58,817 nucleotides of DNA from a virus. A model generated the notes under the pieces. That model saw nothing but the letters and a program-made list of their open reading frames with translations, had not been told where the DNA came from and did not search any database. The DNA is taken from positions 1 through 58,817 of IMG/VR virus record IMGVR_UViG_3300004460_000011; one strand, given 5' to 3'. Each line of letters opens with the position of its first letter. Position 1 is the first letter of the stretch. The position numbers and the translations under genes were made by a program. Shown here piece by piece: positions 18,947-58,817 of this stretch.

Positions 18947-19231
18947 TCAGACTATTTGTACATTTTTATCTATTATTGCAGTTATATCTCGTTCTCTTAA
19001 ACTTAATATGGTTTTTCCTTTATATTTAATTTCTGTACCTGCTAAATCATGAAAAAGAACCTTTATTCCTATTTGAAAATCGTTATCCTCTACACCACCT
19101 CCTACACCAATAATAGTTCCTGAATACGGTGGGGCAAATTGGCCTTCTTTTTTTAATAAAATTATACTGCCTTTTCTTTCTGGTTGTTCATCTTTTTTTA
19201 AAAATATTCTATTTCCTAAAGGTTTTATCAT
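18947..19231 (-). CDS. GroES/gp31-like co-chaperonin
   Basis: This 94-residue protein is a clear GroES family member: I-K-P-L-G-N-R at the N-terminus, a mobile loop region with KGSIILL, then PPYSGTIIGVG, VLFHDLAGTEI and a final RERDITAII. It caps the host GroEL ring. T4 gp31 and other phage versions enlarge the folding chamber so that the major capsid protein can fold. It is closer in size to GroES (97) than to T4 gp31 (111). It stands alone between two short intergenic regions, with a host-type promoter core upstream. Confidence 0.9.
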   Translation of the reverse strand: MIKPLGNRIFLKKDEQPERKGSIILLKKEGQFAPPYSGTIIGVGGGVEDNDFQIGIKVLFHDLAGTEIKYKGKTILSLRERDITAIIDKNVQIV

Positions 19232-38569: not shown

Positions 38570-41500
38570 TTATTTTGTTTGTTTTATATTTAAGATATTT
38601 CTACCTTTTTTATATTTATTCCCATTCGTATCCGTAAGTTCTAATGTTATCATATACTTTCCTGGGTCTTTAAAAAGATATGTTAGATACTTGCTTTCAA
38701 AATATATATCCGCCACTGATGAGTTAGTAGTATTAGAGATAGTCCATCTAGGCGCTTCTTTACCTGCTATTCTACATTTATCATAGACAAACATTGCCCA
38801 TGTCATCGGTGGTAATACTTTACCGTCATTAATAAACTTAGCAGTTCCCCATGTAGGATTACTAGTTATACTTTGGCTTGATTTATAGATTCTACTTGCA
38901 CAACCTTGAGATCCAGTAGCATTTGCGCAAATCCTTTGCCCATCTACATCTACAAAATCTACAGATTTAAAATCACCAAATTTACCATAATATCTGGATA
39001 CTGCTTGTATAAACATTTGATTATTTGATGAATCTAAAACAAGGTTATATATGTATTTATTAATAATAGAATTTGTGCTAACATTTAATTGATCAGCAGC
39101 ATCTTCCAATGTTAAAACTGTATTGTCAAAATATTCGATACCTTCTTGGTTTTTTTCATCAATTATTTTTAAATAAGTATTAGGTGCTATTTCACTAAAC
39201 TGAAAAAATGCAGGAGTATCTCCTGTTGTAGCTGTCATATCCCACCACAAATGATATGTATTATCCCAATCACAAGATTTAGTATTTAAATTTTGCCACT
39301 GATACGGTCCACTAAAACTAGCCTTTCCGTTGCTTTGATAATTTAATAACTGAAAGTCAGTTGATGTTCCGATACCGAAGGTGTTTAAAATAGCATTAAC
39401 TCTGTCAAGAGATTCATATAAACTTGGGGTTTCTTCATCCCATGTAGTAGTAGGGCTTATTGGAACATCCCATAAAGATCCATAATTCTTCCAGGTATAA
39501 ATTCCTTCACTACTCCAAGTATAAAATTTCTTTTGTGATTGATACCAACCTGAATATTCTACTTCTCTACCTTCAACACAAATAGCACTATTTTTAACGC
39601 TTGATGAAATATTATTATATAAATCAAATAATTTCATTTCAACATTATAATTTCCAACATAAGGTAAAGTTATAGGTAAAGTTCCATATTTACCAACCGA
39701 TCCTCTTACATTAAAATAATAAGCTGGGGAAATGTCAGACGCATCTTTATAAATAGTCCATTCTATTTCTGTAAAATTACCAGACTCTATACCATCCCAG
39801 GTAAATAAAGTTTCTCCAGGTAATTGTATTTCTGTAAATTGTCCACCGCTTGCAGCATTGGCTAAAGTTACACTAGGTACAAATCTATTAACATCATTAC
39901 CATAACACCTAATGCATGGTCCTATATCATTTGTAACCTGAAACCAATCAAACCACAACCAAGGATCCGTTTGTAAATTTTTTAATGCAACTACTTGATT
40001 AAATAAAGATGTAGTTACTGTTTGTAAAGTATCTCCGTTAACAACGGTATGGCTTACGCTAGTGTTTGTAGCAGGATCGCTTAATTTATAAACATCTCCT
40101 AAATCTAAGCAGCCTTGTACATTAAAATCAAAAGTAAAGAAATCATTAGCATTTGTTACTTGGTCCCATGTACTATCAATATTATTCCATGTTATATTAT
40201 TAAAACTATCATTTGTTAATGTTACCAAAGCCCCTACCTTAATCCCTGGTTGATCAGGTAAATACTGAGAAGAATATCCTGGTTTATATAATGATTGGTT
40301 TTTAGTTAAATTAGGTGCATATCTAGAAAAGTAAGCTGCATATACGCCAGCCACGTCTTGAACAGAAACATTGCCACCATTTTGTAAAGCACCTAGTACA
40401 CTGTTTACATCTGGCCCAATTGGTGCCGGAGGTAAAATTTCACCTGGAGTATATGGACCTACAATCATATTTTGCCCAACTGCAGTTGTTCCTGCTGTTA
40501 AAGGTGCAACATAAGCATTACAGTATGCAACAATAGCATCACCAACAACAGCAGCTTTTTCCAAACAAAATTTATCAAATTGTCTAAGATCTTCTATATA
40601 GGTACAATTACTAGGGGCTACTTTAAAATCGGTATTAATGCCTGCTTTAATTGTATTAGTATCATTTCTACTTATTGTATTAGTTACCTCCAATAAGCCG
40701 AAGAAATCAGCCTCTGCTGTAATTCCTTTAATGTGAGCATTAAGTGGAAGATATTCATTTTCTAATTTTCTTTTTAACCCAAATAATTTAATTAAAATTT
40801 CTTCAATAGTAAAATCCTGTAATTCTTCAGTTATTGGCAAATCTTCATCAGTAAATTTATTTGGTACAATCCTATTAATTCTATAAATAAGACTAAACAT
40901 ACTGGTCTTCCTAAAGTTTTTATTTGGTAATGTTATTTTTTTGTCATCAAATTGAACAGTAGGCGAAAATAAATCAACAGTATTACTTTGAATATACTTT
41001 CCAAACTGTGGCGAATTGGCATTTACATTTTTCCAAAATTCTTTTAATTTTAAATTATCATAACCAAAAAACTTTATAGCATTTATTAAACCTTTGTAGG
41101 AGCCTATAAAAGGGTATATGTTATTACCCTCCATCATAATTTCTTTACGCTTAAGATTAATTTCTACGTAATCAGGTAATGCTTCCTTTAAATTAGTATC
41201 TCTAAAGACATCACTATCAGAAGCAATAACGCTATACCCCATATTTTGAGTCATAACTCTTAATCTCTCATCTTCTTCAATGCTCTCTGCGTAAACAGTA
41301 AATTCTGCCACAACAGTATTGGTGCATTCATCAGTAATAATTAATTTTCTCTTATAAGTATTTTCAAAAGGCGAGGAAAATGTAATATTTATTTGTAAAG
41401 CTTCTGATCTAATTTTATTAGTAACAATAAAACCATCAGGATCTATTGTTTGATTTTCATCATAGCCTAATGGTGCAATTAAATCATCTACCTTTATCAA

Positions 41501-41854
41501 AGGAGGCCCATCAGGTTCTTGAACTAACGCAGATTGTGTACCAGTATTAAAGTCTTCATTAAATTGAAAAAGAAATATTTCATTAGGCTGTGTAGTTTCC
41601 CAATTTACCACCCAGTCACAATTATCTCCAGTTGATTGCTCGGCTAAACCATGTGGGTAACCAAACATAAAAGTATTACTAGTCTTGTCTTTCATTTTTT
41701 GTAAAATGAATAACTGACCTACTTCAAATAAATCTATTGAAACCTGTGGAAGAAAAATGTCACCAGTCCACTTGTCAGTAGTACTGTCATAATCCATATT
41801 GTAATTCTTCCCATGTTTATCAAAGAAATATAAATGTTTCCAATTGTTAACCAC
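38570..41854 (-). CDS. gp7-like baseplate wedge protein with Ig/PKD-like domains
   Basis: This 1094-residue protein has, at ~residues 210-390, a region resembling gp7/phage tail protein I (NIYPFIGSYKGLINAIKFFG, EEILIKLFGLKRKLENEYLP), typical of wedge proteins. The remainder contains Ig/PKD-like beta sandwiches, including one at the C-terminus (LFKDPGKYMITLELTDTNGN). T4 gp7 is 1032 residues and likewise follows gp6. The start shown is GTG at 41852-41854; an AAAGGA element lies only 2 bp upstream, so the true start is uncertain and an in-frame ATG is at residue 20. Homology to gp7 is by pattern and order only. Confidence 0.55.
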   Translation of the reverse strand: MVNNWKHLYFFDKHGKNYNMDYDSTTDKWTGDIFLPQVSIDLFEVGQLFILQKMKDKTSNTFMFGYPHGLAEQSTGDNCDWVVNWETTQPNEIFLFQFNEDFNTGTQSALVQEPDGPPLIKVDDLIAPLGYDENQTIDPDGFIVTNKIRSEALQINITFSSPFENTYKRKLIITDECTNTVVAEFTVYAESIEEDERLRVMTQNMGYSVIASDSDVFRDTNLKEALPDYVEINLKRKEIMMEGNNIYPFIGSYKGLINAIKFFGYDNLKLKEFWKNVNANSPQFGKYIQSNTVDLFSPTVQFDDKKITLPNKNFRKTSMFSLIYRINRIVPNKFTDEDLPITEELQDFTIEEILIKLFGLKRKLENEYLPLNAHIKGITAEADFFGLLEVTNTISRNDTNTIKAGINTDFKVAPSNCTYIEDLRQFDKFCLEKAAVVGDAIVAYCNAYVAPLTAGTTAVGQNMIVGPYTPGEILPPAPIGPDVNSVLGALQNGGNVSVQDVAGVYAAYFSRYAPNLTKNQSLYKPGYSSQYLPDQPGIKVGALVTLTNDSFNNITWNNIDSTWDQVTNANDFFTFDFNVQGCLDLGDVYKLSDPATNTSVSHTVVNGDTLQTVTTSLFNQVVALKNLQTDPWLWFDWFQVTNDIGPCIRCYGNDVNRFVPSVTLANAASGGQFTEIQLPGETLFTWDGIESGNFTEIEWTIYKDASDISPAYYFNVRGSVGKYGTLPITLPYVGNYNVEMKLFDLYNNISSSVKNSAICVEGREVEYSGWYQSQKKFYTWSSEGIYTWKNYGSLWDVPISPTTTWDEETPSLYESLDRVNAILNTFGIGTSTDFQLLNYQSNGKASFSGPYQWQNLNTKSCDWDNTYHLWWDMTATTGDTPAFFQFSEIAPNTYLKIIDEKNQEGIEYFDNTVLTLEDAADQLNVSTNSIINKYIYNLVLDSSNNQMFIQAVSRYYGKFGDFKSVDFVDVDGQRICANATGSQGCASRIYKSSQSITSNPTWGTAKFINDGKVLPPMTWAMFVYDKCRIAGKEAPRWTISNTTNSSVADIYFESKYLTYLFKDPGKYMITLELTDTNGNKYKKGRNILNIKQTK

Positions 41855-41860
41855 TATCCT

Positions 41861-42130
41861 TTAATTTATTTTTTGATACCACTTAGGAACTGCAAAATTA
41901 TAATAAATCCTTAAATATTTAACTTTATTAACATAAAATACCATAATAGGGTTTAGGTAATCTTCTAAGAATGTTTTAAGATGTCTATTTCTAAACATAT
42001 AATTGGATAAGGTTTTGTTTAACAATGTTTTTGAATAATCATACCCAGTATTTTTTAATTCCCAACCTTCTTCATATGTAGCCCTATATAAACTAGGGAA
42101 TCCTGTTCTATTATTTTTAACTGTTGCCAT
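41861..42130 (-). CDS. Small protein between wedge genes
   Basis: This 89-residue protein (MATVKNNRTGFPSLYRATYE...) is rich in Tyr, Asn and Lys. It has one of the few convincing Shine-Dalgarno sequences here: AAAGGAG eight bases before the ATG, although that sequence also encodes the end of the gp6-like protein. Located between the gp6-like and gp7-like genes, it is probably a minor baseplate component. No family is recognised. Confidence 0.55.
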   Translation of the reverse strand: MATVKNNRTGFPSLYRATYEEGWELKNTGYDYSKTLLNKTLSNYMFRNRHLKTFLEDYLNPIMVFYVNKVKYLRIYYNFAVPKWYQKIN

Positions 42131-42131
42131 C

Positions 42132-43988
42132 TTATTCTCCTTTTAATGTTTTAAGTGGTGCTTTACTTTCTAACCTACCTGTATTTAATCCTGCAGAGTT
42201 AGCTCCCGTTGCAATTGTAGTTCCTCTGTTTCTTTTAGTTTGGTTATATTTTTCTTGTTGTATTTTATTATAAAGATTATCTACAATAGCTTCTTTATAG
42301 AATACATTAAGAGAACTGATTTTATTAGCTTCTGGAATTGGTTCATAGTATGTACCATTTCTATCTTTCCACCCACCACGAATAATTGCTAAATCATCAT
42401 TTTCAATTATAACATCACCAAAACTATCTAATCCTAATTGTGGATCCTCGCCTTTCTTTAATACAATTTTTTTATTTTCTATTAATACCTTTTGGTCTGT
42501 CACAGGATCTGTTCCATAAACAGGTATAAAATAAAAACCATCTCTTATTGCGGTTTCATTTCTTTCAGATATAAAAAATACATTTACAGAATCAATACCT
42601 TCTACGTTTTCAATAATTGAAATAATATCAGATCTTGGAATTCTATCTCTTCTGTTTACATTTAAGAAATATTCATCTAAATTTTTTCTTATTTCAATTC
42701 TTATACCATCCTTATCATAATTATCAAACCATCTTATTACAATGTTAAGTGCATACTTTCTAATGATTGGATCTACAATTCTAGTTTCAGCGGTTACAAC
42801 CTGCCTACCGCTCTTGTTTAATATTTCATAAGTCATTTCCTTTTCCTGCGCAGACATAGTAAATTCTACCTCAGGTACACTAAAGTAATCTAAATCACTT
42901 GTTAATTTTTTCTTTACATCTGGTATTAAGAAAAGGTAAATAATGTTATCATCATCTAAGTATTCATCATTTTTAGTATTGTAAGCATCTATGAAAGACC
43001 AAAAGTCATACTTACTTAAATAGTAAATATAATTGTTAGGATTTGCTAATACAAATGAATTACTTTGATAAGGCGCAATTAATCTAGTAAATTGAGGATC
43101 TTCGGAATCAGATCCAAACATAGGATTTCTTGTAATATTCATTGCAAGAATCTCATTTAAATCTACCTGCTCGCCTGATGTGTCTGTACCGGGATCTATA
43201 AATTTTATATCTAACTGCTTTCCTCCTATATTACCAGCAACACCTCTAGTCTTTACGTAAGTGCATCTAATACGAGAACCTAATGCAGGCGGTTGGCCAA
43301 ATTGATTATTTCCAAAAAATAAACTCAATCCGCCATTTACGCTAGTTTTTACCATAACAGATTTCTCTCCGTTATTCATATCATATAAGGAATTTTCAAT
43401 CTTCCATTTTTCTCCGTCAACAAAAACTTCAACTAAGTGCTGATCTGTAGGTTCTTTGGTAGAAAGGTTATAACTTTGTAAAGGATTACCAGATCCTGTA
43501 AAACTCTGCTCATCTTTTTCACCTTGGATAACTTCAACATTAACAAAGGTTTTTGTAGTTTTATCTAATCTAATAAAATCACTATTGAATCTTAAAAAAT
43601 ATTTTAATCCATTTTGCCCTATCTCAAATGTAGCACCATTCATAATTTGTACATAATCACCTTTAAGCAGCGTAGATGCACTTGTGTTTAATCGTAATCC
43701 AATTATACCTCTTGCAGATATACCTCGCGTAGGATCATGCCCAGTCAATCTAGATAAACCATATATAGATTCAATATTTCTTGCCCGAGAAATATTCATT
43801 TCTGTTGCGACAGCCTCTATGTAAAAGAAAATCATTTCACCTAAATTGGAAACTACTGTCAAAATTTGTCCAAATGGTGAGGCAGGTGTAAATGTTTCTA
43901 CAGCCTGATCATAAGTACGCTGAAGATACTCAAAAGAATCTTCAAACAACTCAGTAGCCTTTAATCTTGTTTTACTAAAAAATGACAT
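42132..43988 (-). CDS. gp6-like baseplate wedge protein (baseplate J family)
   Basis: This 618-residue protein (T4 gp6 has 660) opens with a helical segment (FEDSFEYLQRTYDQAVETFT, FGQILTVVSNLGEMIFFYIE) and an ARNIESIYGLSRLTGHDPTR motif, the classic start of baseplate J/gp6 proteins. Beta domains follow, with RRDRIPRSDIISIIENVEGI typical of the C-terminal region (~440-470). gp6 forms the ring of the wedge that drives sheath contraction. It lies directly downstream of the gp25-like gene, the standard arrangement in contractile tails. Confidence 0.85.
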   Translation of the reverse strand: MSFFSKTRLKATELFEDSFEYLQRTYDQAVETFTPASPFGQILTVVSNLGEMIFFYIEAVATEMNISRARNIESIYGLSRLTGHDPTRGISARGIIGLRLNTSASTLLKGDYVQIMNGATFEIGQNGLKYFLRFNSDFIRLDKTTKTFVNVEVIQGEKDEQSFTGSGNPLQSYNLSTKEPTDQHLVEVFVDGEKWKIENSLYDMNNGEKSVMVKTSVNGGLSLFFGNNQFGQPPALGSRIRCTYVKTRGVAGNIGGKQLDIKFIDPGTDTSGEQVDLNEILAMNITRNPMFGSDSEDPQFTRLIAPYQSNSFVLANPNNYIYYLSKYDFWSFIDAYNTKNDEYLDDDNIIYLFLIPDVKKKLTSDLDYFSVPEVEFTMSAQEKEMTYEILNKSGRQVVTAETRIVDPIIRKYALNIVIRWFDNYDKDGIRIEIRKNLDEYFLNVNRRDRIPRSDIISIIENVEGIDSVNVFFISERNETAIRDGFYFIPVYGTDPVTDQKVLIENKKIVLKKGEDPQLGLDSFGDVIIENDDLAIIRGGWKDRNGTYYEPIPEANKISSLNVFYKEAIVDNLYNKIQQEKYNQTKRNRGTTIATGANSAGLNTGRLESKAPLKTLKGE

Positions 43989-44001
43989 TTACTTTATTAT
44001 T

Positions 44002-44364
44002 TTAAAAAAGAGCACCTATAACTCTCTGTTCATTTACAAAAATATCAACCAATGCACCATCTCTTTCAAGTGTAGAAAAGAAACTTACTTTTGTATTTAC
44101 ATCAAACCCTGCAAAATCTGGTAAACAGTATGCAGTGATTTGGCTGTTAATATTATTTTGTATAGTGTTTTCGTTTAATACTAAAGAAAATATTAATTCA
44201 TCTAAATTACAACCTATACTAGGAGCACCTAAAACTTCTCCTTTTCTAGTAAATAAACAATTTTCTATCTTAATAATTAATTGAGATAGAGAATCACTAA
44301 CTTCCAGTGTAGCATCATTATATTTAGGAGCCTCTACATCTCTACTATAAATATCTCTAATCAT
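44002..44364 (-). CDS. gp25-like baseplate wedge protein
   Basis: This 120-residue protein (T4 gp25 has 132) shows the gp25/gpW family pattern: an N-terminal helix (SDSLSQLIIKIENCLFTRKGE), a conserved GAPSIGCNLDELIF segment, a second helix and a beta hairpin ending LVDIFVNEQRVIGALF. gp25 anchors the first sheath ring to the wedge. The start is supported by the late-type promoter core 20 bp upstream. Confidence 0.88.
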   Translation of the reverse strand: MIRDIYSRDVEAPKYNDATLEVSDSLSQLIIKIENCLFTRKGEVLGAPSIGCNLDELIFSLVLNENTIQNNINSQITAYCLPDFAGFDVNTKVSFFSTLERDGALVDIFVNEQRVIGALF

Positions 44365-44384
44365 TTAAGAACACTAATTTTTTA

Positions 44385-44393
44385 TTATATATT
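44385..44393 (-). promoter_or_regulatory. Late-type promoter core AATATATAA
   Basis: AATATATAA lies 20 bp upstream of the gp25-like ATG in a 61-bp intergenic region and would drive the wedge operon. Confidence 0.6.
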
Positions 44394-44425
44394 CTCTTTT
44401 AATTTAATAGCTTTCAGATTATAAA

Positions 44426-45289
44426 TTACCCCGTGAAAAAGTAATCAACACCTTCATCCCCTTTTATTTCTTCTACTACCCTATCAACCTCTTCTCGGCC
44501 TTCAGATGAAATCATATCATAATTAATTGTAATGTTACCTGGAAGATTAAATGAGAAGGTTCCTAAAATTCTGGATAGTTGTATTTTAGCCATTCCAATA
44601 ACATATCTTTGAAATGCTTCATCTTCAAATAATGCACAATCACTAATAGTTGAAAATATTTCAAATATAACTGCATTCTTAGGAAGCTCGCCTTGGAATC
44701 TAAACTTTTTAGTTAGCCTATTAAATGTATATGATATTTGTGGTAATAAAACTTGTCTTGCATTATCCATGAATAATGAATTAACAACATAGTACATTAA
44801 ATTTTCACTGCCTATACCTGCACCGTAAACATCGTCATATATAAACTTGTCAATTGAAAAATCTACATCATCTGCATTAAAGCTCATTTGACCAAATCCA
44901 CCATCTTCACCACTGAATCCACCTATCTCAAATACATCATTCACTGAATAAACCCTAGATGGCATTTGAACAATACCTCGAGGATTAGAAATTTGATTTT
45001 TATTAGTTATAGTTTCGTTAGCCTGGCCAGTTCCATGTGGCACTCCTTGATTAAAAGTACTTTTCTTTAATGCACCAGCAGGTAAAGCAATATACATTTG
45101 TTCTACACTATCTTCATATATTTTATAAAAATATTTTTTTGCTCTTTGTATAATATTGTTTAATTCTTTCTTAGGAACAGTAAACGGTATTTGGCATGCA
45201 ATAGTAAGATCATCATTAATTAATTTTATTAATGCATCTAAGCATGCAGCTTCATCAGGATCATTACAATAAGTATTCTTATTAGCCAT
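44426..45289 (-). CDS. Virion structural protein, possibly neck or baseplate
   Basis: This 287-residue protein has an N-terminal helical part (DPDEAACLDALIKLINDDLT, IIQRAKKYFYKIYEDSVEQM), a middle with Gly-rich segments, and a C-terminal part with LSRILGTFSFNLPGNITINY then SSEGREEVDRVVEEIKGDEG. That last pattern (a helix, an LPG turn, an acidic helix) occurs in structural proteins of several myoviruses. I cannot assign a T4 gene. It precedes gp25 with a 61-bp gap holding a promoter core. Confidence 0.5.
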   Translation of the reverse strand: MANKNTYCNDPDEAACLDALIKLINDDLTIACQIPFTVPKKELNNIIQRAKKYFYKIYEDSVEQMYIALPAGALKKSTFNQGVPHGTGQANETITNKNQISNPRGIVQMPSRVYSVNDVFEIGGFSGEDGGFGQMSFNADDVDFSIDKFIYDDVYGAGIGSENLMYYVVNSLFMDNARQVLLPQISYTFNRLTKKFRFQGELPKNAVIFEIFSTISDCALFEDEAFQRYVIGMAKIQLSRILGTFSFNLPGNITINYDMISSEGREEVDRVVEEIKGDEGVDYFFTG

Positions 45290-45295
45290 CTTATT

Positions 45296-46588
45296 TTATA
45301 TTTTTTCTATTTCAATTATTTCGGTATTTTCAAACTTTGCTAATTTAGTAGCTCTACCTTTTCTAAAAATACCACCTTCCATTTCGCCACTAAATACTCC
45401 TTTAGGCCCAAAGACATAAGAATCTTTACACATTACATTTTTACTTACATAAGAATCTTCTATCTTACAATCAGCAGCATCAGTTGCACCAAACAAGTTA
45501 CTCTCAAATAAAGATGAATTTATAAGTTCTGAACTAAAGATATCACAATTTAAAATATTACCTTGGATTTTACAATCTACAATATCAATTCCTTTTATTT
45601 CAAAGCATTGCATTAATTCAGCATTTTTCAATTGCATTTTTCCAGTATCAGCATCATAATTAATTAAACCTTCTTTTAGTCCTGCTAAAGTTAAAAGTTT
45701 AAAAATCTCCTCCCTCATTTTAGGATAAAAAGTTTCTACAATTTGATCATACGTTTGTAGGTCAACCATTAATTTTATCCTTGGGAATCTTTTCTTAAAC
45801 GCTTGGTAATCTTTATATGATTCCACTATACCACTATGCTTTTCTAAAACAGCATCTAATTGTTTAAGGTCATTATTGGTATATTGAGGATACATTAAAG
45901 TTTCATATAATGATACAACAAAATGTTCAGTTAAATCCATTATAGTATTATACTTCTTTTCATAATCTTTTCCGCCAAGATATCTAAATTCAATATAATT
46001 TTTAGGTAACTTGGAAAAGTTTACACCATAATACTTTTCAGATACAAACATGTAATTTTTCCATAAGATTTTTTCTGGGGAAGGTTGAGTCATTCCACTT
46101 AAAGGAACAATAAATTTTATTGACTTAGCATAAACAGAATCTTTTCTGTTAGGAAATGCTTCATAAATTTTATTCTCATTAAAATTTAATACAAATTTTC
46201 CAATATCTAAACTTGATACATTTGTAGGAGTTCCTAATTTCTTTCCATCAAATGCTACATTAACATGAATACTACATCGCTCATTAGTGAATCCATTTTC
46301 ACGAATCCACTTTAGAGTTTTTGCAATAATAAGTTTTGATTCAACAAACGGCATTGGCCCAGTGACCAATTCAATCATGCCAGTTCCACCTGAATTATCA
46401 GGCTCTAATTTAAATACTTCATCGGAAGGTGTAAATTCACTATGAGCCTTTTCTTCTATTTGTATTCTTTTATTTAAAACATTAGAAAGACTTCTTTTAA
46501 CCTCGTCTAACCCTTCATTAGCAAAGAATTCAAATTCTAATCCAATCTTGGATGCATATATGGCATTTAATTGTTCGTTAGTGTACAT
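45296..46588 (-). CDS. Predicted amidoligase with C-terminal beta-solenoid
   Basis: This 430-residue protein carries the motifs of glutamine-synthetase-fold amidoligases (PF12224 type): G16LEFE20, an E73-LVTGP strand, C-SIH108VN110V, and E200FR202 followed by YLGG. Such enzymes use ATP to join carboxyl and amino groups and are linked to peptide tagging, cell-wall or metabolite modification. Residues ~326-415 form short repeats with Cys/Ile/Ser periodicity (DCKIQGNILNCDIFSSELIN) like pentapeptide-repeat or beta-solenoid folds, ending GGIFRKGRATKL. The gene sits inside the baseplate cluster, after the S1-like gene. Its ATG is preceded by AGGA, which is buried in a hairpin with a promoter core in the loop. 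Substrate unknown. Confidence 0.72.
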   Translation of the reverse strand: MYTNEQLNAIYASKIGLEFEFFANEGLDEVKRSLSNVLNKRIQIEEKAHSEFTPSDEVFKLEPDNSGGTGMIELVTGPMPFVESKLIIAKTLKWIRENGFTNERCSIHVNVAFDGKKLGTPTNVSSLDIGKFVLNFNENKIYEAFPNRKDSVYAKSIKFIVPLSGMTQPSPEKILWKNYMFVSEKYYGVNFSKLPKNYIEFRYLGGKDYEKKYNTIMDLTEHFVVSLYETLMYPQYTNNDLKQLDAVLEKHSGIVESYKDYQAFKKRFPRIKLMVDLQTYDQIVETFYPKMREEIFKLLTLAGLKEGLINYDADTGKMQLKNAELMQCFEIKGIDIVDCKIQGNILNCDIFSSELINSSLFESNLFGATDAADCKIEDSYVSKNVMCKDSYVFGPKGVFSGEMEGGIFRKGRATKLAKFENTEIIEIEKI

Positions 46589-46592
46589 GTAG

Positions 46593-46624
46593 TTCCTGAT
46601 TTGTTTATATATTCAAACCAGGAA
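46593..46624 (-). promoter_or_regulatory. Hairpin with RBS in the 3' arm and promoter core in the loop
   Basis: Minus-strand TTCCTGGTTTG (46624-46614) pairs with CAAATCAGGAA (46603-46593): 11 base pairs including one G-U, with a 10-nt loop AATATATAAA. The 3' arm contains AGGA, five bases before the amidoligase ATG. Read-through transcripts from the S1-like gene would hide this site. Transcripts started at the loop promoter would lack the 5' arm and leave it free. Confidence 0.65.
46605..46613 (-). promoter_or_regulatory. Late-type promoter core AATATATAA in hairpin loop
   Basis: AATATATAA lies 16 bp upstream of the amidoligase ATG, inside the loop of the inverted repeat at 46593-46624. Confidence 0.55.
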
Positions 46625-46628
46625 TAGG

Positions 46629-47771
46629 TTATGCTATGTTCATGGTAATCTTGCGATCACTAACATTCACACTTCCAATTTTTACATTTATAGAATCACC
46701 TTTAGATAGATCGGTTCCCTTTAATTTAGACTTATGAATTAAACCACTAATACCTTTTTCTAATTCAACAAATGCACCGTATGAAGTTATTTTAGTTACC
46801 TTACCTTCAGATATCATCATAGGTTTATATTTATCATTAACGCCATCCCATAGATCAATCTTAGGACCTAATTGGCTTAATATAATTTTTCTATCTGATA
46901 TAACTTCTTTAGCCCAGAATGTTATTTCATCACCAGGTTTAATACTTCTATCATCCAATGCTTTTTGAAATTCTTCACTTAATTCAGCCTTAGGAATTAA
47001 TCCTGTTAAGCATTCATCAAATTCAGCAAATACACCAAACTTAGTAGTACCTGTTACAAAGCCTATTCTAGGTTCTTTAATAGTCTCATTTAATTTTTCA
47101 ATTGTTGAAGGAATCATTGTTCTTAAATATTCTCTATGGGATACTACAACCGTATCCTTTTCCCTAGAGAATGTTATTGGCATAACAATTATTTCTTTAC
47201 CAACAATAGCACTAAAATCATGTAATTTATTTAAACCTCCTAATGAACCTGGCATAAAACATTTAATGCCTGCAACATCTACCCAATATCCACCATGAAT
47301 TAATTCTTTAACTTTAGCAGTAAAACCAATTGTTGAATTTCCAATAGCCTCTTTAATTTCTCTTAGCTTAACTTCTTTTATAGCATCTGAAATAGAAGCT
47401 ATGACATCACCAGTTTTTGGGTTGGTTTTTATCTTAATGTCAATTTCCATACCAACCTCTAATTGTTCAACAATATAATCAGGTTCTTTTGATAGAGTAC
47501 AATACGCTGTATATTTAGACTGAATGTCAATAAGAGCTCTTTCTCTATCTTTAGATATAAAAGAAACTTCACCTCTTGTAGTGTAAGCTATATTGTCTTC
47601 TATTAATTGAGTTTTTTGTAGAGTGGAATCGTGAAGATTATACATAGAAAGTGCATCAGCAGCATATGCTTCATTTGCCATTAATTTTGTACCTTCTGGA
47701 ACTTGAACTTTTATTTTCTTTGTATCAAATGGATCATCACTTAATTGAATGGTGATTTCTTGCTCGGTCAT
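46629..47771 (-). CDS. Ribosomal protein S1-like protein with four S1 domains
   Basis: This 380-residue protein has four S1 (OB-fold RNA-binding) domains at about 64-130, 148-215, 233-300 and 317-380. The last is canonical (GKVTKITSYGAFVELEKGIS, GLIHKSKL). Bacterial S1 has up to six such domains; the first two bind the ribosome and the rest grip mRNA leaders. The first ~60 residues (TIQLSDDPFDTKKIKVQVPE) are extra. A phage S1 could favour A/U-rich, SD-less phage leaders, or protect or remodel RNA. It lies among baseplate genes between a small gene and the amidoligase, with its own late-type core upstream. Fold assignment is firm; role is inferred. Confidence 0.85.
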   Translation of the reverse strand: MTEQEITIQLSDDPFDTKKIKVQVPEGTKLMANEAYAADALSMYNLHDSTLQKTQLIEDNIAYTTRGEVSFISKDRERALIDIQSKYTAYCTLSKEPDYIVEQLEVGMEIDIKIKTNPKTGDVIASISDAIKEVKLREIKEAIGNSTIGFTAKVKELIHGGYWVDVAGIKCFMPGSLGGLNKLHDFSAIVGKEIIVMPITFSREKDTVVVSHREYLRTMIPSTIEKLNETIKEPRIGFVTGTTKFGVFAEFDECLTGLIPKAELSEEFQKALDDRSIKPGDEITFWAKEVISDRKIILSQLGPKIDLWDGVNDKYKPMMISEGKVTKITSYGAFVELEKGISGLIHKSKLKGTDLSKGDSINVKIGSVNVSDRKITMNIA

Positions 47772-47801
47772 TTTTTTATTTTTAAGAGTGGTTATTATAG
47801 A

Positions 47802-47810
47802 TTATATATT
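47802..47810 (-). promoter_or_regulatory. Late-type promoter core AATATATAA
   Basis: AATATATAA lies 30 bp upstream of the S1-like ATG in an 86-bp intergenic region. A short TAGAT/ATCTA inverted repeat flanks it. Confidence 0.5.
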
Positions 47811-47857
47811 TTGTACATCTAATATTAGTTATACTTATAAATTAGTAGATTGTTTCA

Positions 47858-48136
47858 TTAAGTGATTTTACCAGTACCTGTACCTGCTTGGGCAACAGCG
47901 GATCCTGCAGTAACCACAGCAGTAGTTACTAATCCAGTCAGTATGAAAGCATTTATTGCTTTACTTGCTTCTGCTGCAAATGCTTTTCCTCCAGCATCTC
48001 TTATGACTGCTGCTGATGTAGTAACTGCTACATCAGAAGTATTCTTTGCTGCTTTGTCATCCATAGCTTTCATTCCTTTCTCAAAAGCTTTTTCTAATGC
48101 TAATTGTAATGGTCCTATTCCTGCTGATAATGGCAT
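47858..48136 (-). CDS. Small Ala-rich protein with hydrophobic C-terminal helix
   Basis: This 92-residue protein (MPLSAGIGPLQLALEKAFEK...) has an amphipathic, charged first half and an Ala/Val/Gly-rich second half (AFILTGLVTTAVVTAGSAVA) that could be a membrane or buried helix. A similar-length frame exists on the opposite strand, but this strand has the promoter core, the neighbours and the better composition. It directly follows the gp5-like spike gene. It may be a virion or membrane-interacting protein; no family is recognised. Confidence 0.55.
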   Translation of the reverse strand: MPLSAGIGPLQLALEKAFEKGMKAMDDKAAKNTSDVAVTTSAAVIRDAGGKAFAAEASKAINAFILTGLVTTAVVTAGSAVAQAGTGTGKIT

Positions 48137-48158
48137 AATTTATTATTTAATTTATAGT

Positions 48159-48167
48159 TTATATATT
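48159..48167 (-). promoter_or_regulatory. Late-type promoter core AATATATAA
   Basis: AATATATAA lies 22 bp upstream of the ATG at 48136 and overlaps the stop of the gp5-like gene. Confidence 0.5.
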
Positions 48168-49063
48168 TAAAGAGTTTTTACTTGCTTTTGGCTTAATTCA
48201 GCAGGTGTCATTGGTTTTATAGGCGGGCTTGTTGGTACTCCTTTATTTCCAATATGATTATGACTATTAAATAATGACATAAATTTGTTCCCTAATACTA
48301 ATGGTTCACTTGCACCTTCTCCTAATTCTATTGATGATGCATGATTAACAATAGTATTTTTACAATTGATTATTGCATCTTCACAATTAATTTCTGTATT
48401 AGCTCCACTGTTAATTGTAACTTGAGCAGAATGTGTAAAAGTTAAATTACCATCATTAAGCATTACGATAGTATCACCGTTAGCATTTATTATTTCAACA
48501 GAGTTATCAGGTTTTATATTTACAGTAGTTGGACCTTCAGTTGTAGTGTAGTCCATCATTAGCCCTTTTTCTTCTGTAAAGAAAACTTTAATATGTTCCC
48601 CTTCTCTTTCATTAGTTACTTCAGATACACCGTCTTGTAATTCTCCAGTTAAACCAAATGCAGTGTCATAAATTAATACATGAGAATTTTGGTATGAAGG
48701 TTCTACTTCAGCTTTAGTTTCGTCTGAAGGATAAATGTTTTCATGATAAATAGGTTGGTAAAAATTTCCATTATCAAAAGTAAGTCTAACGATAGAACCC
48801 AACTTAGGAATTTCAAATTTACCACTTCCTGTATTACTTCCACCATACATTAATTGATGAGGTCTTGACCACGGTAACGCAGCAGTTGGAATCTTATATG
48901 CACTTTCAGGATCTTCGGGATCTACGCGATCATCCATTTTGCCATATACTCTTATCTTACATCTCCCTTCAAAGATATCATCATTAGTATCTTCAACAAT
49001 ACCAACCCACTGTGTAGATCTTAAATCATCAGAATTAAAATTTTTTGGATTAACTTTTCCCAT
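48167..49063 (-). CDS. gp5/gpV-like baseplate spike protein
   Basis: This 298-residue protein has an N-terminal OB-fold typical of gp5/VgrG/gpV spikes (WVGIVEDTNDDIFEGRCKIR, VYG, then LPKLGSIVRLTF-like KFEIPKLGSIVRLTFDNGNF). A C-terminal beta-helix with short repeats follows (TINSGANTEINCEDAIINCK), ending in a region with HNHIGNKG. The spike punctures the outer membrane at contraction. T4 gp5 (575 residues) has a lysozyme domain between these parts; that domain is absent here. It shares a one-base overlap with the upstream tube-like gene and follows the hub genes as expected. Confidence 0.82.
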   Translation of the reverse strand: MGKVNPKNFNSDDLRSTQWVGIVEDTNDDIFEGRCKIRVYGKMDDRVDPEDPESAYKIPTAALPWSRPHQLMYGGSNTGSGKFEIPKLGSIVRLTFDNGNFYQPIYHENIYPSDETKAEVEPSYQNSHVLIYDTAFGLTGELQDGVSEVTNEREGEHIKVFFTEEKGLMMDYTTTEGPTTVNIKPDNSVEIINANGDTIVMLNDGNLTFTHSAQVTINSGANTEINCEDAIINCKNTIVNHASSIELGEGASEPLVLGNKFMSLFNSHNHIGNKGVPTSPPIKPMTPAELSQKQVKTL

Positions 49064-50499
49064 TAGTCAAATATATTTTCGTCAGTTATAGTAGAATTAG
49101 GAGGAGGTCCTGATGGGCCAAACGCATTAAGAGAAGTTAAACCTCCTAATGTATTAGCAGATGGATCAAATACTTGATCAGAACCACTTAATGTATTATT
49201 TGGTGGATTGGGTGCGCCTAGTGGACTATCACCGATATTTCTTACAGCAGACTCATTACCAAATGTAGGTAATTCTCCACCTTGTATAGCAGCACCTACT
49301 GCTGCGTTAATTAATCCTTGTGGATTTGAAATGGCCCCAAGTAGTTCATTCCTTAAACCGAATACATTTCCTAAAGTAAGACCTTGTATTGCACTTGACA
49401 CAGTTCTACCAACTGCATTAATTGCGCCTTCAGCTGCATTAGCTAGTTGATCTTTTCCAAACTGTTTAAGCTTATCTTTAAATGATGGGTCTGTATTAGA
49501 TGGAATTTTACTTGCATCTAATTTACTATTATAGCCAGAAAATTGAGAAACATTTTCCATTAAACCATAATTCCATTTAATTTGTGTAGTAGCTATATCT
49601 CCGCCATTATTAGTTACACCCTCAAAAACATTTCCGCTTGCACCAGGATCCCACATACATTCAGTAAATTTAAAACCAACCTGAGATGTGTTTTCATTTA
49701 CAAGTTTTTTGGTATCATCCGAATCCTTTGATGGGTTTAGTGCGCCTAACCAATTTCTTACTGTTTTAAATTTTCTAATTTCTTGTACATAAACATACAC
49801 ATCAAATCTTAATAAGTTTTGTGGCACAATAAATCTTTTGTATCTTGTATCATATACAGCCATTTTATATAAACTAAATAATGCTGTAAGTTTTAAATCT
49901 ATTGCCTCTAAACAACCTATAGTAATCCCTTCTTCACCAGTTGTACCAGTATAAGGATCGGTACTAAACGTTGTAGATTTTTGCCAAGCCTCTAATAATC
50001 CTTGTATAGTTTGAAAATAATATGGCCTAGTTTTATTAATTTCTTGAATACCTTGAATAAATGCTTTTAAGTATTCTACTCTGTTTGTTTCTCCAATTTT
50101 TGCTAAATAAGCAACTGCTGACGGTGTTGATGGATAACTACCAGCTCCAGATGGTGGTGTAGATGATGTTCCTCCTAAACCTGAAACGGCAACATCACCG
50201 TTAGCTGTTGGCTTTGGGTTTTGTTCAGGTGGTGTAATACCAGTATTTGCAACAACAGCACCATTAAATAAAGGAGATGAAATATCAAACATTAAACTAA
50301 ATCCAAGATAAGTAGGATCATCTAATGATGTTACCCCATTGCTTCCAGAGCCGTATGCAGTTGTCGGGTTAGCAACAAACTTTTTAGCAAACTCATAACT
50401 TTGTGGAAAACTCCCACTTCCTAGATAGGAACCGAATGGTCCAGCTAATTGAGCCAATGCCTGACTACCTGCGGGGTTTGCTAAATCTATTAAAGGCAT
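49063..50499 (-). CDS. Tail-tube-fold baseplate protein
   Basis: This 478-residue protein has a central region (~230-330) with LLRFDVYVYVQEIRKFKTVR, VGFKFTECMWDPGAS and DIATTQIKWNYGLMENVSQF, matching the strand order of tail-tube-like proteins that join hub to tube (gp48/gp54 class in T4). The N-terminal ~130 residues are Gly/Ser/Pro-rich. The C-terminus (~345-478) is Ala/Gly-rich and low in complexity. It lies between the gp27-like hub and the gp5-like spike. The tube-cap or initiator role is inferred. Confidence 0.55.
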   Translation of the reverse strand: MPLIDLANPAGSQALAQLAGPFGSYLGSGSFPQSYEFAKKFVANPTTAYGSGSNGVTSLDDPTYLGFSLMFDISSPLFNGAVVANTGITPPEQNPKPTANGDVAVSGLGGTSSTPPSGAGSYPSTPSAVAYLAKIGETNRVEYLKAFIQGIQEINKTRPYYFQTIQGLLEAWQKSTTFSTDPYTGTTGEEGITIGCLEAIDLKLTALFSLYKMAVYDTRYKRFIVPQNLLRFDVYVYVQEIRKFKTVRNWLGALNPSKDSDDTKKLVNENTSQVGFKFTECMWDPGASGNVFEGVTNNGGDIATTQIKWNYGLMENVSQFSGYNSKLDASKIPSNTDPSFKDKLKQFGKDQLANAAEGAINAVGRTVSSAIQGLTLGNVFGLRNELLGAISNPQGLINAAVGAAIQGGELPTFGNESAVRNIGDSPLGAPNPPNNTLSGSDQVFDPSANTLGGLTSLNAFGPSGPPPNSTITDENIFD

Positions 50500-50522
50500 A
50501 TTGTTTTATTTTTTTATATTTA

Positions 50523-52007
50523 TTATGTCGTTGGAGTAAACTCTCGACGTTGTAATTTTAATCTCATTCTAACAGGACCAGGTTTAGTTAAAATCCATTC
50601 AACACCAGATATAACATAAAAGCCAGTTAAATATTCATTAACTATACCATTTTCCGAATTAGGATCATTTTCATCCGGATCACCTGTTCTAGTTTGAGGG
50701 GCTTCATCCCCTTCTATGTCATCATTAGATGGTGCTAATAAAGCATTCTTTATTGGGCTAGCAAATTCTAAAATTTGAACATATATTCTACTATATCTAA
50801 CTAAAGCAGGATTAACTGTATCTAATTCTATAACCATTCCCATTTTATTAATCTCAGCGTTATTTTGATAATTCTGAACTGTAGCATATTGAAATTCAGG
50901 ATGAACATTATCGCCCTGTGTACCTAGATATTTGTATTTAACTTGATCATTTCTAGGGCCTTCCACTTCTCCACCTACTATTCTACCTTTTGTAGCAGGT
51001 ATCATTCCTGGTGTATCGTTTGTTAAAGGATCTACAAATTCACTAACCCATTCTTTTGCTTCAAGATCCCAGTATTGAGTGTATCGTTTATAACCGTTTG
51101 CTTTACTAATAGCCCCACTCTTGTTTACTAATTCATGTTTAGATACATACCTTGCACCACCTTGCATCTGAATCATATTACTTAAATAGTTAGGAAATTC
51201 ATCCTCTTGTCCTTCTGATCCTTCAGCACCTATAGTATCTCCAGCATTTTGGCTAAATGTTTGGCTAGCTTCAATTGCACCTTCTTGACTAAATAATCTA
51301 TTTACATCAACCATTGTTAAATAATAATAAGGATCAATATAAGAAGTAAAAAATGTTTCGTCGCTTAAGTAACTATTTGCAACAATGTCTTGTATCCACG
51401 TTTCTGTAGTATCATTAGGATTTGTCCATGTCATAGTATCAGCAGTCTCTTCAACATTAGACGCATACCCTAATTGTAATCTTTCAGCTATATTTAATAG
51501 TGCATCCCAGCTTGTAACTTCTTCTTCATATTCAACATTTTCTGTAAAAAGATTAGGGACAAACATTCTACCCATTATTAAATATTCACTTGCACTTGCA
51601 CCGCCACCGCCGCCAACAGGTTTACAATCAACTATAGTAAAATCTATTCTTATTGGTTTAAACGTAGTTTCATCACCTTGTGATCTAATGTTAACTTGTA
51701 TTAAATCTCCATCCTTAGGATAAAATCTTGAAGTAAAGAATCCATCAACATCAGCAAATTGTATTTTAATAATTGGATAAAAAGCATCATTCTTTAAAGA
51801 AAATAGATTTAACCTATCCATTTGGACATCATATCCATTTACCCTAATATCTGGTACTACCTGAGAAAATTTAGAAGGTTTTTCTTTTAGTGTTGAATCA
51901 TCAGAATTTTCTGACCCACTTTCAACATCCAATATTTCCATTGGATCTAATTCTATAGCGGGTTCTATAACCGTTAATATATTTCTTTCAACTATACTAT
52001 CAGACAT
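50523..52007 (-). CDS. gp27/gpD-like baseplate hub protein
   Basis: This 494-residue protein fits the hub family (T4 gp27, P2 gpD): a first beta domain with GYDVQMDRLNLFSLKNDAFY and FYPKDGDLIQVNIR, then a second domain with SWDALLNIAERLQLGYASNV, WTNPNDTTETWIQDI and SYIDPYYYLTMVDVN. A C-terminal GFYVISGVEWILTKPGPVRM strand set follows. The hub trimer links the spike to the tail tube. Four glycines in a row (~133-136) mark a loop. It is followed by tube-like and gp5-like genes, which supports the call. Confidence 0.7.
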   Translation of the reverse strand: MSDSIVERNILTVIEPAIELDPMEILDVESGSENSDDSTLKEKPSKFSQVVPDIRVNGYDVQMDRLNLFSLKNDAFYPIIKIQFADVDGFFTSRFYPKDGDLIQVNIRSQGDETTFKPIRIDFTIVDCKPVGGGGGASASEYLIMGRMFVPNLFTENVEYEEEVTSWDALLNIAERLQLGYASNVEETADTMTWTNPNDTTETWIQDIVANSYLSDETFFTSYIDPYYYLTMVDVNRLFSQEGAIEASQTFSQNAGDTIGAEGSEGQEDEFPNYLSNMIQMQGGARYVSKHELVNKSGAISKANGYKRYTQYWDLEAKEWVSEFVDPLTNDTPGMIPATKGRIVGGEVEGPRNDQVKYKYLGTQGDNVHPEFQYATVQNYQNNAEINKMGMVIELDTVNPALVRYSRIYVQILEFASPIKNALLAPSNDDIEGDEAPQTRTGDPDENDPNSENGIVNEYLTGFYVISGVEWILTKPGPVRMRLKLQRREFTPTT

Positions 52008-52010
52008 ATC

Positions 52011-52556
52011 TTATGATTCAGTATTTGTACTATTTCTTGTCGGTAGATTTGCCCCTAATTTAATTTTACCTCCTTCATATACTTTAGCATCTTGTCCTTG
52101 CTGTAGCATATTTGGTGGAATAGGTGACTTTACTCCATTCTTTTTTGTTTTAGCTTTTTGTATTAATCTTTGGATTCGTGATTGATCTTTTTCACTCTGT
52201 CTTCCAGTATCAACATACTGAGCCAATGAAGCACTTGGTCGTTCTGCGGGATTTGGTCTCTTATAAACTAAATCTAATTGTTCTAATTTAGGTATTGCCA
52301 AAACATCACCTTCTTGAATAGTAAAAGGATTAAAGATATTATTAACAACACATATTGCATCTAAATAAGCATCCGTTCCATAATACATCTGAGAAATTTT
52401 ATCTATACGGCCTATCTGGTCTTGCTGAACGTAATGTAAAGCCTTAACACCAAGTTCTCTTTTATATTTAAAGGAAGGTGCAGTTAAATCAAAATATTGT
52501 TGGCCTGTTTTTTCATCAGACAATTTATTTTTTAATGTAAGAGATTTAATGTTCAT
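52011..52556 (-). CDS. LysM-domain baseplate protein (gp53-like)
   Basis: This 181-residue protein has a LysM-like module at ~42-90: DQIGRIDKISQMYYGTDAYL, then CVVNNIFNPFTIQEGDVLAI and P. The order (helix, YYG turn, helix, N-x-F, GD-x-L-x-IP) is typical of LysM domains in T4 gp53 and other baseplate proteins, where they stabilise the wedge-hub contact rather than bind peptidoglycan. A basic linker (RLIQKAKTKKNGVK) follows. It sits immediately upstream of the hub gene. Confidence 0.72.
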   Translation of the reverse strand: MNIKSLTLKNKLSDEKTGQQYFDLTAPSFKYKRELGVKALHYVQQDQIGRIDKISQMYYGTDAYLDAICVVNNIFNPFTIQEGDVLAIPKLEQLDLVYKRPNPAERPSASLAQYVDTGRQSEKDQSRIQRLIQKAKTKKNGVKSPIPPNMLQQGQDAKVYEGGKIKLGANLPTRNSTNTES

Positions 52557-52570
52557 ATTTATTTATTCTT

Positions 52571-54382
52571 TTATGAGTCAATTAGCATTTGTGTTAAGTT
52601 ACTAACATATGCACCTGTTGTTGGATCTTGGCTAGCACTACCATTCTTAAGAGATGAAACTTCAGAACTATTGTTTTTAATATTAGAGATTAATTCATTA
52701 TTGAATGAATCAGCTGATGGTTGATTTGTAGATGGTTGTAAACTACTTGTTCCTACGTCTGGTATAACACCATACATTGAAACTTCTTTACCAGCTAAAT
52801 TAAGTACATCTTCAACACCTTGAGCTGATGCATATATTCTACCTTGGCCTGCATTAAACATATTTTCTATATCTCCTTTATCTCTTGGCTTACCGTGCTT
52901 TAAATCAATTTCAAATTTAGCCTCCATAGGAAAATCATCATAACCTAAACCTTGTCCTAATGTCATAGTAGCATTATCACAAATCATATTACCCATCATT
53001 ACAATTGGATTTAATGGATTACCGACAGTTAAATGCCAGTCACCGGTAGGTTCTCCGCTAATAAAAGCCTTCGTTGCAGATGTACCTGTAGCACCACCTA
53101 CTTGCTTACCTAAAAAGTTACCAAGCATATTACCTAATAAATTTTTACCAACTTTCTTTAAACCATCAACTATACTATTAGCATCAAAATTTCCACTAGA
53201 ATCTCCAAATAATCCTTTCATACCAGTCTCTACATCATTAACTACACTTCCCATATAACCAGAAAAATTACCATCTCTTAACATACTAATGTCTCCGAAT
53301 TGGCTAGCAACAAATCCACTACTTCCATAATACCTATGCCCTCCTCCAAAAAATTGAGCATTATTAGTAGTCATGGTTAACATATTACTTATAATATCAA
53401 TCATTGCTATTTTAGGATTAACATAACTTAATGATTTAAGTTCATATTCAAAAGTTAGCTTCATATCATTTGTAAACTTTAATCCACGTTTACGAACCAT
53501 AGTACTATCTACAACGTTTACTGGTCCTAATACAAAATTAGCATAAGTAGTTCCTAACCTATCAGCAGTAGAGCTACCTGCTCCGTTTTGAGCTCTAAAC
53601 TTAGAACCTGCGGTTTGTCCTTTTGCTGAGTCAGCAACTGCTCTACCTATTCCTCCAATTTTATTGTAAAAAGGTTGTTGTGTGTAACCGCCACCTGATG
53701 AACCAGTATCCACTGATTCAAAATCAGCTGTTATTGCTTCATAATTTAAACCAAATGACATCTTTAAAAGTTCTTCTAAACTATTACCAGCAGTTTCTCC
53801 TAAATATGTTATTGCCGTTACACCAGCAACTTGTGTGGCATCGGCTACAGTTCCTTCTTTATCCTTAACTTTATATTGATAAATGTTGTCAGAAATTGCA
53901 GTTGGAAATCTCCTAAGCGTAATTAAATGATTTACTGGAATTTTCTTGTAATATTTAGAATATAAAAAATCTGATGGCTTATAACCTATTTTAGGATAGT
54001 GTTCATCAAAGTAATTTATGATCTTTGGTAATGAAACATTAGTAGCTTCCGCCCCACCCATTAATTCATTAACAGGTTTATCAATATACTTATCCTGTTG
54101 AGCTGTTTGTAAATTTCCATAAAATCCTTGGAAATTAAACAGAGCATACTTATTAGCAATAGAACTTGCAATTGGTGATGTAGACATGCCATTAGCCACG
54201 GTTGCTGCATCAGCCAACGCAGAATTAACATAAAAGTTTTGGCTATATAAATCAGCAACACCTTTTGCAAAACCTGAAGCTTGGCCACCAAATGGGCCTA
54301 CTAAATTGGTATTTGCAGTATTCTCCTGAGGATACATTGCATCATTGAGTGATTCAATTTTATTACTGAAATTAAAAGCCAT
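52571..54382 (-). CDS. Large tube-fold/baseplate protein
   Basis: This 603-residue protein has two halves that look tube-like. Around residues 290-340 are VRKRGLKFTNDMKLTFEYEL and NPKIAMIDIISNML. Around 445-520 are DWHLTVGNPLNPIVMMGNMI, then FPMEAKFEIDLKHGKPRDKG and DIENMFNAGQGRIY. The N-terminal ~90 residues are Ala/Asn-rich, and a Gly-rich region separates the halves. It is the first gene of the hub cluster, driven by a late-type core. A baseplate-tail-tube connector is the likely role; I cannot give a T4 gene number. Confidence 0.55.
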   Translation of the reverse strand: MAFNFSNKIESLNDAMYPQENTANTNLVGPFGGQASGFAKGVADLYSQNFYVNSALADAATVANGMSTSPIASSIANKYALFNFQGFYGNLQTAQQDKYIDKPVNELMGGAEATNVSLPKIINYFDEHYPKIGYKPSDFLYSKYYKKIPVNHLITLRRFPTAISDNIYQYKVKDKEGTVADATQVAGVTAITYLGETAGNSLEELLKMSFGLNYEAITADFESVDTGSSGGGYTQQPFYNKIGGIGRAVADSAKGQTAGSKFRAQNGAGSSTADRLGTTYANFVLGPVNVVDSTMVRKRGLKFTNDMKLTFEYELKSLSYVNPKIAMIDIISNMLTMTTNNAQFFGGGHRYYGSSGFVASQFGDISMLRDGNFSGYMGSVVNDVETGMKGLFGDSSGNFDANSIVDGLKKVGKNLLGNMLGNFLGKQVGGATGTSATKAFISGEPTGDWHLTVGNPLNPIVMMGNMICDNATMTLGQGLGYDDFPMEAKFEIDLKHGKPRDKGDIENMFNAGQGRIYASAQGVEDVLNLAGKEVSMYGVIPDVGTSSLQPSTNQPSADSFNNELISNIKNNSSEVSSLKNGSASQDPTTGAYVSNLTQMLIDS

Positions 54383-58307: not shown

Positions 58308-58768
58308 TTATGGTGCTATTTGTTCAAACCAATATTCATTACGATGTCCGTTATATTGTACAGTTAAATACATATTAGTATTAGTTATAAAATCATCTCC
58401 TTTAATTCCAACTGCCAAACTTACACTTGGTGATGAGGCCGTGTTAGTTAATATTCTAGCAAAACCACCTATTACACTTGATGCCGGACTTATAGTATAA
58501 GATGTAGCACTAGCAGCGGGGGCACCATCCATATTATAATAAGTACCTATTACATTATCAGTTGTAATTGTTCCTGTTGTAGTACTAGCCGTAGCAACTC
58601 CAGTTGGTCCTTGTGGTCCTTGTGGCCCTTGTTGCCCTGTTGGTCCCTGTGGTCCTTGAGGTCCTTGTTGACCAGTTGGTCCTTGTGGTCCTTGTTGACC
58701 AGTTGGTCCCTGTTGTCCTTGAGGTCCTTGTTGACCAGTTGGTCCTTGTGGTCCTTGTTGACCAGTTG
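58308..58768 (-). CDS. Collagen-like tail fibre, N-terminus missing (adapter junction)
   Basis: The frame is open into the adapter at the contig end, so its apparent start ([12 protein letters not shown]) is translated adapter and must be discarded. Genuine sequence starts at ~58768 with Gly-X-Y triplets ([13 protein letters not shown]...). A ~95-residue C-terminal domain follows ([20 protein letters not shown] ... [13 protein letters not shown]), probably the trimeric tip. The C-terminal start is nearly identical to the truncated gene at 1-863. True length is unknown. Confidence 0.8.
58601..58768 (-). repeat. Collagen-like Gly-X-Y coding repeat at contig end
   Basis: Tandem 9-bp-based units encode GPQ, GPT and GQQ triplets. 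They end abruptly at the adapter and are paralogous to 74-231. Confidence 0.9.
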
Positions 58769-58817
58769 AGATCGGAAGAGCACCCGTCTGAACTCCAGTC
58801 ACCGTTGTATATCGTAT
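58769..58817 (+). other. Illumina adapter and index read-through (artefact)
   Basis: From 58769 the sequence AGATCGGAAGAGCACCCGTC, continuing TGAACTCCAGTCAC to 58802, matches the TruSeq adapter with one mismatch (A to C). The next eight bases fit an index (CGTTGTAT), and the last seven, ATCGTAT, look like the following adapter segment with a small deletion. This is not phage DNA. Confidence 0.97.

Follow-up and report, generated by a model that had tools for sequence, protein, structure and literature searches.

Ribosomal protein S1 encoded by phages is already on record. Al-Shayeb et al. (2020) described rpS1 in huge phages whose genomes lack Shine–Dalgarno (SD) sequences and suggested that it acts in translation initiation; S1 is listed there beside S21 (PMC7162821). 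Chen et al. (2022, PMC9723584) described a related system, the bS21 carried by freshwater Bacteroidetes phages. These phages express bS21 and their structural genes late, and the aromatic residue 54 of Bacteroidia bS21 assists occlusion of the anti-SD sequence. The main text of that study makes no mention of bS1 or rpS1. Furthermore, ribosomes are known to incorporate a phage bS21 (PMC6375957). The Microcystis jumbo phage PhiMa05 (a cyanophage, 2026, PMC13157829) also carries a bS1, which its authors infer to have been acquired, with other ribosomal proteins, from a Vampirovibrio-like host.

On the bacterial side, Escherichia coli remains viable with an S1 that lacks domains 5 and 6, whose capacity to form 30S initiation complexes is close to that of the full-length protein; domains 1–3 constitute the minimal active core (PMC3858243). 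Initiation on an SD-less mRNA rose twofold in vitro when Flavobacterium johnsoniae bS1 was added (PMC9976891). A phage family with its own S1 provides a natural experiment on how Bacteroidota ribosomes choose SD-less mRNAs.

The stretch of DNA analysed here (the window) comprises positions 1 to 58,817 of IMG/VR record IMGVR_UViG_3300004460_000011 and is a fragment of a phage genome. A preliminary description had regarded its multi-domain S1 as notable in itself. This novelty does not hold, as phage S1, its correlation with missing SD sequences and the hypothesis itself were all published in 2020 (PMC7162821), and at least 568 viral contigs carry relatives. What is added here is the size of an aquatic clade, the core status and fixed place of S1 within it, a residue test, a comparison with the gp6 tree and a pairing with bS21. 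The gene and its domains are as follows:

46629..47771, minus strand: phage S1 gene with bS1 domains D1–D4 (380 aa; colinear homology and AlphaFold2 model)
47391..47591, minus strand: OB domain 1, residues 61–127 (AlphaFold2 model; colinear with E. coli D1)
47136..47333, minus strand: OB domain 2, residues 147–212, with the FMPGS motif (34% identity to Bacteroidota D2)
46872..47081, minus strand: OB domain 3, residues 231–300 (Pfam S1, 34.5 bits)
46632..46820, minus strand: OB domain 4, residues 318–380, with the canonical S1 motif YGAFVELEKGISGLIHKS (Pfam S1, 47.5 bits)

The reading frame starts with ATG and is intact, with no internal stop. Pfam scores an S1 domain for D3 and D4 only, D1 and D2 lying under the detection limit of this search. 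With phmmer, the protein aligns to residues 21–324 of E. coli bS1 (E 4e-29), and the S1 family profile gives one colinear alignment over residues 10–346, i.e. D1–D4 (166 bits, E 1.4e-47). On the S1 domains of PNPase, RNase R, Tex and GSP13 the same profile scores 28–39 bits (about 29 for PNPase and Tex). Among the NCBIfam models, the best S1 models reach 72–145 bits on the window protein, against 38 for the PNPase model. The preliminary description had left room for S1 domains of the PNPase/RNase type; these scores and the colinearity rule out an origin from PNPase, an RNase or Tex. The protein stays under the curated rpsA cut-off (126 versus 577 bits), whose model spans six domains, and genuine Bacteroidota rpsA can score under this cut-off too.

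An AlphaFold2 model computed with 25 relatives as input shows four OB-type strand sets (mean pLDDT 80.8). Its pTM of 0.50 is as expected because the domains are flexibly linked. The closest PDB match of the model is bS1 in a 30S mRNA delivery complex (E 8.4e-23). The four OB-fold S1 domains proposed at the outset are thus borne out by the colinearity with D1–D4 in both searches and by the four modelled folds. Judged by homology, phage S1 is a true bS1 relative which has kept D1–D4. It shares with Bacteroidota bS1 (rpsA) the colinear D1–D4, the anchoring lysine and the FxPGS motif of D2, whereas it differs in the absence of D5–D6, in an identity of 20–37% by domain, in the lost histidine of D3 and in a shorter D4 loop. 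Between the window S1 and its close relatives, dN/dS amounts to 0.06–0.15 (simple NG86 method) and synonymous changes prevail; by this measure, purifying selection acts on the gene. A four-domain S1 under such selection shows that these bS1 domains are worth keeping to a virus, and they match the core defined by deletion in E. coli.

Both an N-terminal helix (Phe5, Phe9) and Lys43, which enters the zinc pocket of uS2, anchor bS1 to uS2. In OB2, Lys117, Phe120 and Phe130 make up a pocket close to the SD region (PMC10123108). Two corresponding features are found in the window:

47514..47516, minus strand: codon of Lys86, equivalent by alignment to E. coli bS1 Lys43 (role of Lys43 from PMC10123108)
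47598..47663, minus strand: two predicted helices ahead of OB1 (codons 37–58; AlphaFold2 helices 37–43 and 49–58), where bS1 has its uS2-binding N-terminal helix

In the alignment, the Lys43 column holds lysine in all 32 non-Lak phage S1 and in 31 of 31 Bacteroidota sequences. The Phe130 equivalent (F172 in the window) is Phe across all phage S1 tested and the Phe120 equivalent is aromatic throughout (Tyr or Phe); the Lys117 position is mostly occupied by His. Phe79 is lost in phage S1, and Bacteroidota bS1 is without it as well. The Phe5 and Phe9 columns vary and have no certain phage equivalents; the neighbouring Tyr44 is almost invariant. In D3, the histidine of GL(I/L)H is replaced by proline in the window's clade, whereas the larger phages retain it. 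YGAF and GLIHKS are retained in D4. Lak S1 has no anchor lysine and no recognisable D4, and carries an insertion around D1. Its N-terminal FDW resembles Bacteroidia bS1, a short likeness that gives no more than a hint of a link between the two.

The gene lies within a conserved block:

38570..54382, minus strand: baseplate/tail block defined by gene order, holding S1 and homologues of gp6, gp25, gp53, the gp5 hub and others

The baseplate gene order around S1 is identical in 17 IMG/VR loci (51–92% S1 identity) and in LR756500. In all of these, the neighbours of S1 are the gp5-like hub on one side and the gene at 45296–46588 on the other. The latter (minus strand) adjoins S1 both in LR756500 and in the loci of the clade; its N-terminus looks amidoligase-like by eye, while its product has no Pfam match and matches weakly a PHROG of unknown function. 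Eighty contigs were found through the baseplate gene, and S1 is present in all 66 that reach its position. By this distribution S1 is a core gene of the window's clade. Bacterial contamination of the window contig is ruled out, as phage baseplate genes flank S1 in the clade loci examined. When the LR756500 baseplate protein was used as a query on viral contigs, a single record matched, which was identical to the query.

A first scan of IMG/VR returned 58 close S1 relatives, and a profile scan extended this number to at least 568 contigs. Annotated phage records contain two sets of true relatives: the LR records, from uncultured phages of 462–735 kb, and the Lak phages. The LR records are presumably the genomes in which Al-Shayeb et al. 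found rpS1. LR756500 (462 kb) encodes an S1 with 43% identity to that of the window in the same gene order; LR756501, LR756502, LR756504, LR745206 and Lak fall into one clade with it, and SD sequences are lacking in both groups of genomes. In contrast to the huge-phage rpS1, the window's clade is aquatic, comprises hundreds of contigs and has S1 fixed in the baseplate block. No S1 was detectable in the cultured phages pT24, MaF61 and PAU, though a related baseplate protein is present. The phage profile also matches 291 of 296 Bacteroidota genomes at no more than 176 bits, consistent with host rpsA, whereas phage proteins score 312–615. Several INPHARED 'phage' matches (Acinetobacter, Listeria, Enterococcus, faecal clones) appear to be of bacterial origin and were excluded from the count; the Acinetobacter match sits in a chromosomal cmk-rpsA-himD block. 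MT836417, MT835643, CAKLQH020000011 and OR847547 are phage-labelled INPHARED records that apparently represent bacterial chromosomal rpsA regions.

The S1 tree was computed on 335 columns from 34 phage S1, 31 Bacteroidota bS1 and further bacterial bS1. All 34 phage proteins, including those of the LR phages and Lak, form a single clade (100/100) outside all sampled bacterial bS1, and this support is unchanged after removal of a long outgroup row and Lak. In the free tree phage S1 is not nested within Bacteroidota bS1. AU tests do not reject a placement of phage S1 with Bacteroidota (p 0.44) or with Bacteroidia (p 0.61). The phylogeny proposed earlier as a check against host S1 thus unites the window protein with huge-phage S1 but leaves a Bacteroidota origin neither recovered nor rejected. 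A very long stem (2.4 changes per column in the 335-column tree, 2.4 to 4.0 overall) leads to the phage clade, so a recent acquisition from the host is unsupported; because of this length, the function of S1 may have shifted. The tree of the gp6 baseplate homologue agrees with the S1 tree in its main groups (the window clade with LR756500; the four 634–735 kb phages together). The branching order of LR756501 and LR756504 differs between the two trees, and gp6 puts MaF61, which has no S1, amid the S1 carriers with a very long branch. These trees are most simply read as mainly vertical descent of S1.

Upstream of 45 window ORFs, an SD motif is found in 4.4% of cases, compared with 5.8% in shuffled leaders. 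In a 181-kb relative the values are 1.8% of 170 ORFs and 4.9%. Adenine occupies mostly 53–78% of leader positions between −17 and −10. The A-rich leaders, mostly without SD, that had been noticed initially are therefore confirmed, SD motifs occurring at or below the shuffled level in both sequences. They fit the correlation published for S1-carrying huge phages (PMC7162821). According to PMC6847099, such SD-less leaders are also general in Bacteroidota; for this reason, they do not alone prove a role of S1. A further element precedes the S1 gene:

47795..47810, minus strand: conserved AATATATAATCTATAA element about 25–40 nt before the S1 start, retained in most of 18 relatives while the flanks diverge

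TATATAAT is found as well 20–27 nt ahead of five other same-strand ORFs. From its position and conservation, AATATATAATCTATAA may serve either as a promoter or as an autoregulatory leader. For the T4 late promoter TATAAATA, no enrichment was seen on the coding strand.

A bS21 gene is present in 13 of 32 S1-bearing contigs, always on the same strand and 18–36 kb upstream of S1. G005 and G006, which are closely related to the window, have it 25–26 kb away. The window stops 11 kb upstream of S1, short of the expected distance, and most contigs without bS21 also end short of 18–36 kb. G007 and G340 have no bS21 within 27–28 kb upstream of S1, so the pairing may not be universal. Position 54 of the phage bS21, which is of Bacteroidia type, is Tyr (Phe in one). 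These phages resemble those of Chen et al. in a similar GC content (31–34%), in their predicted hosts and in the aromatic residue 54. They differ in that bS21 lies opposite in strand to the structural genes in the phages of Chen et al. but on the strand of S1 and the baseplate block in the window's relatives. The marine phage of the window probably infects Bacteroidota, an assignment best supported by the Bacteroidia aromatic residue in its relatives' bS21. No description of an S1–bS21 pairing was found in the open-access literature. This family has phage versions of the proteins for both sites that flank the mRNA exit channel: bS1 and, in many relatives, bS21.

Which role could such a protein play? 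The activity of E. coli S1 without D5–D6 and the F. johnsoniae result suggest that a D1–D4 protein with the uS2 lysine could be a working bS1. We consider it somewhat probable that phage S1 acts as a minimal bS1 which joins host 30S subunits and favours initiation on phage mRNAs. It would be produced with the late structural genes, and D1 would dock at the bS1 site of the host 30S subunit, Lys86 reaching into uS2. Host bS1 would be displaced, and the OB2–OB4 surface would catch the A-rich, SD-less phage leaders, thereby raising their initiation over that of host mRNAs. In the relatives, phage bS21 would sit at the adjacent site, the mRNA exit channel; the window's own genome would carry bS21 too. 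In favour of this reading are the colinearity with D1–D4, the conserved equivalents of Lys43, Phe120 and Phe130, the leaders, the core status of S1 and its purifying selection, the bS21 of relatives, the known incorporation of a phage bS21 into ribosomes and the late expression of bS21 and structural genes in Bacteroidetes phages. Against it speak the uncertain Phe5/Phe9 equivalents, the histidine missing from D3, the long stem of the phage clade, the loss of the anchor lysine and of a recognisable D4 in Lak, and the two contigs in which no bS21 was found. More tentatively, bS1 and Bacteroidia-type bS21 may form a matched kit that remakes the mRNA exit channel of the 30S subunit from phage components, giving a dedicated class of ribosomes for SD-less late phage mRNAs.

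Other roles have to be weighed against this one. Al-Shayeb et al. allow action 'on or off the ribosome' (PMC7162821), and the PhiMa05 report lists three extraribosomal uses of host S1 by phages, namely T4 RegB, Q-beta replicase and lambda Beta (PMC13157829). Phage S1 could accordingly be an RNA chaperone, an mRNA-stability factor or a cofactor of phage RNA/DNA enzymes, which would suit the canonical RNA-binding motif being best kept in D4 and the doubtful equivalence of Phe5/Phe9. We regard such a function off the ribosome as rather unlikely, given that all non-Lak members keep the anchoring lysine and D1–D2 and that co-carriage of bS21 points to the 30S exit channel.

A protein that reaches the ribosome need not assist the phage: the truncation to D1–D4 and the strong divergence from host bS1 could allow phage S1 to occupy the bS1 site without serving host mRNAs well, so that it would lower host translation as a competitor without aiding phage initiation. 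This appears improbable, since the E. coli protein without D5–D6 is almost fully active (PMC3858243) and a gene placed among structural genes would presumably be expressed late for host shut-off. The constant place in the baseplate block, seen in the 17 IMG/VR loci and LR756500, would instead fit a virion or baseplate-assembly protein. In the 634–735 kb phages and Lak, however, S1 and the gp6 baseplate gene are far apart, therefore the role of S1 need not depend on the baseplate; the bS1-type sequence and the retained uS2 lysine likewise make a structural role very improbable. The minimal bS1 acting on host 30S subunits is the reading we prefer.

Several other features of the window deserve mention. 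The ORF at 58308–58802 (minus strand), at the contig end, has a 12-residue start that resembles a translated sequencing adapter. A 565-aa acidic, repeat-rich protein of unknown function is encoded at 12853–14550 (minus strand), and the product of 6150–6542 (minus strand) contains about eleven consecutive lysines. Lastly, a GroES-type co-chaperonin (Cpn10, 52.7 bits) is encoded at 18947–19231 (minus strand), near gp32-like and UvsW-like genes.
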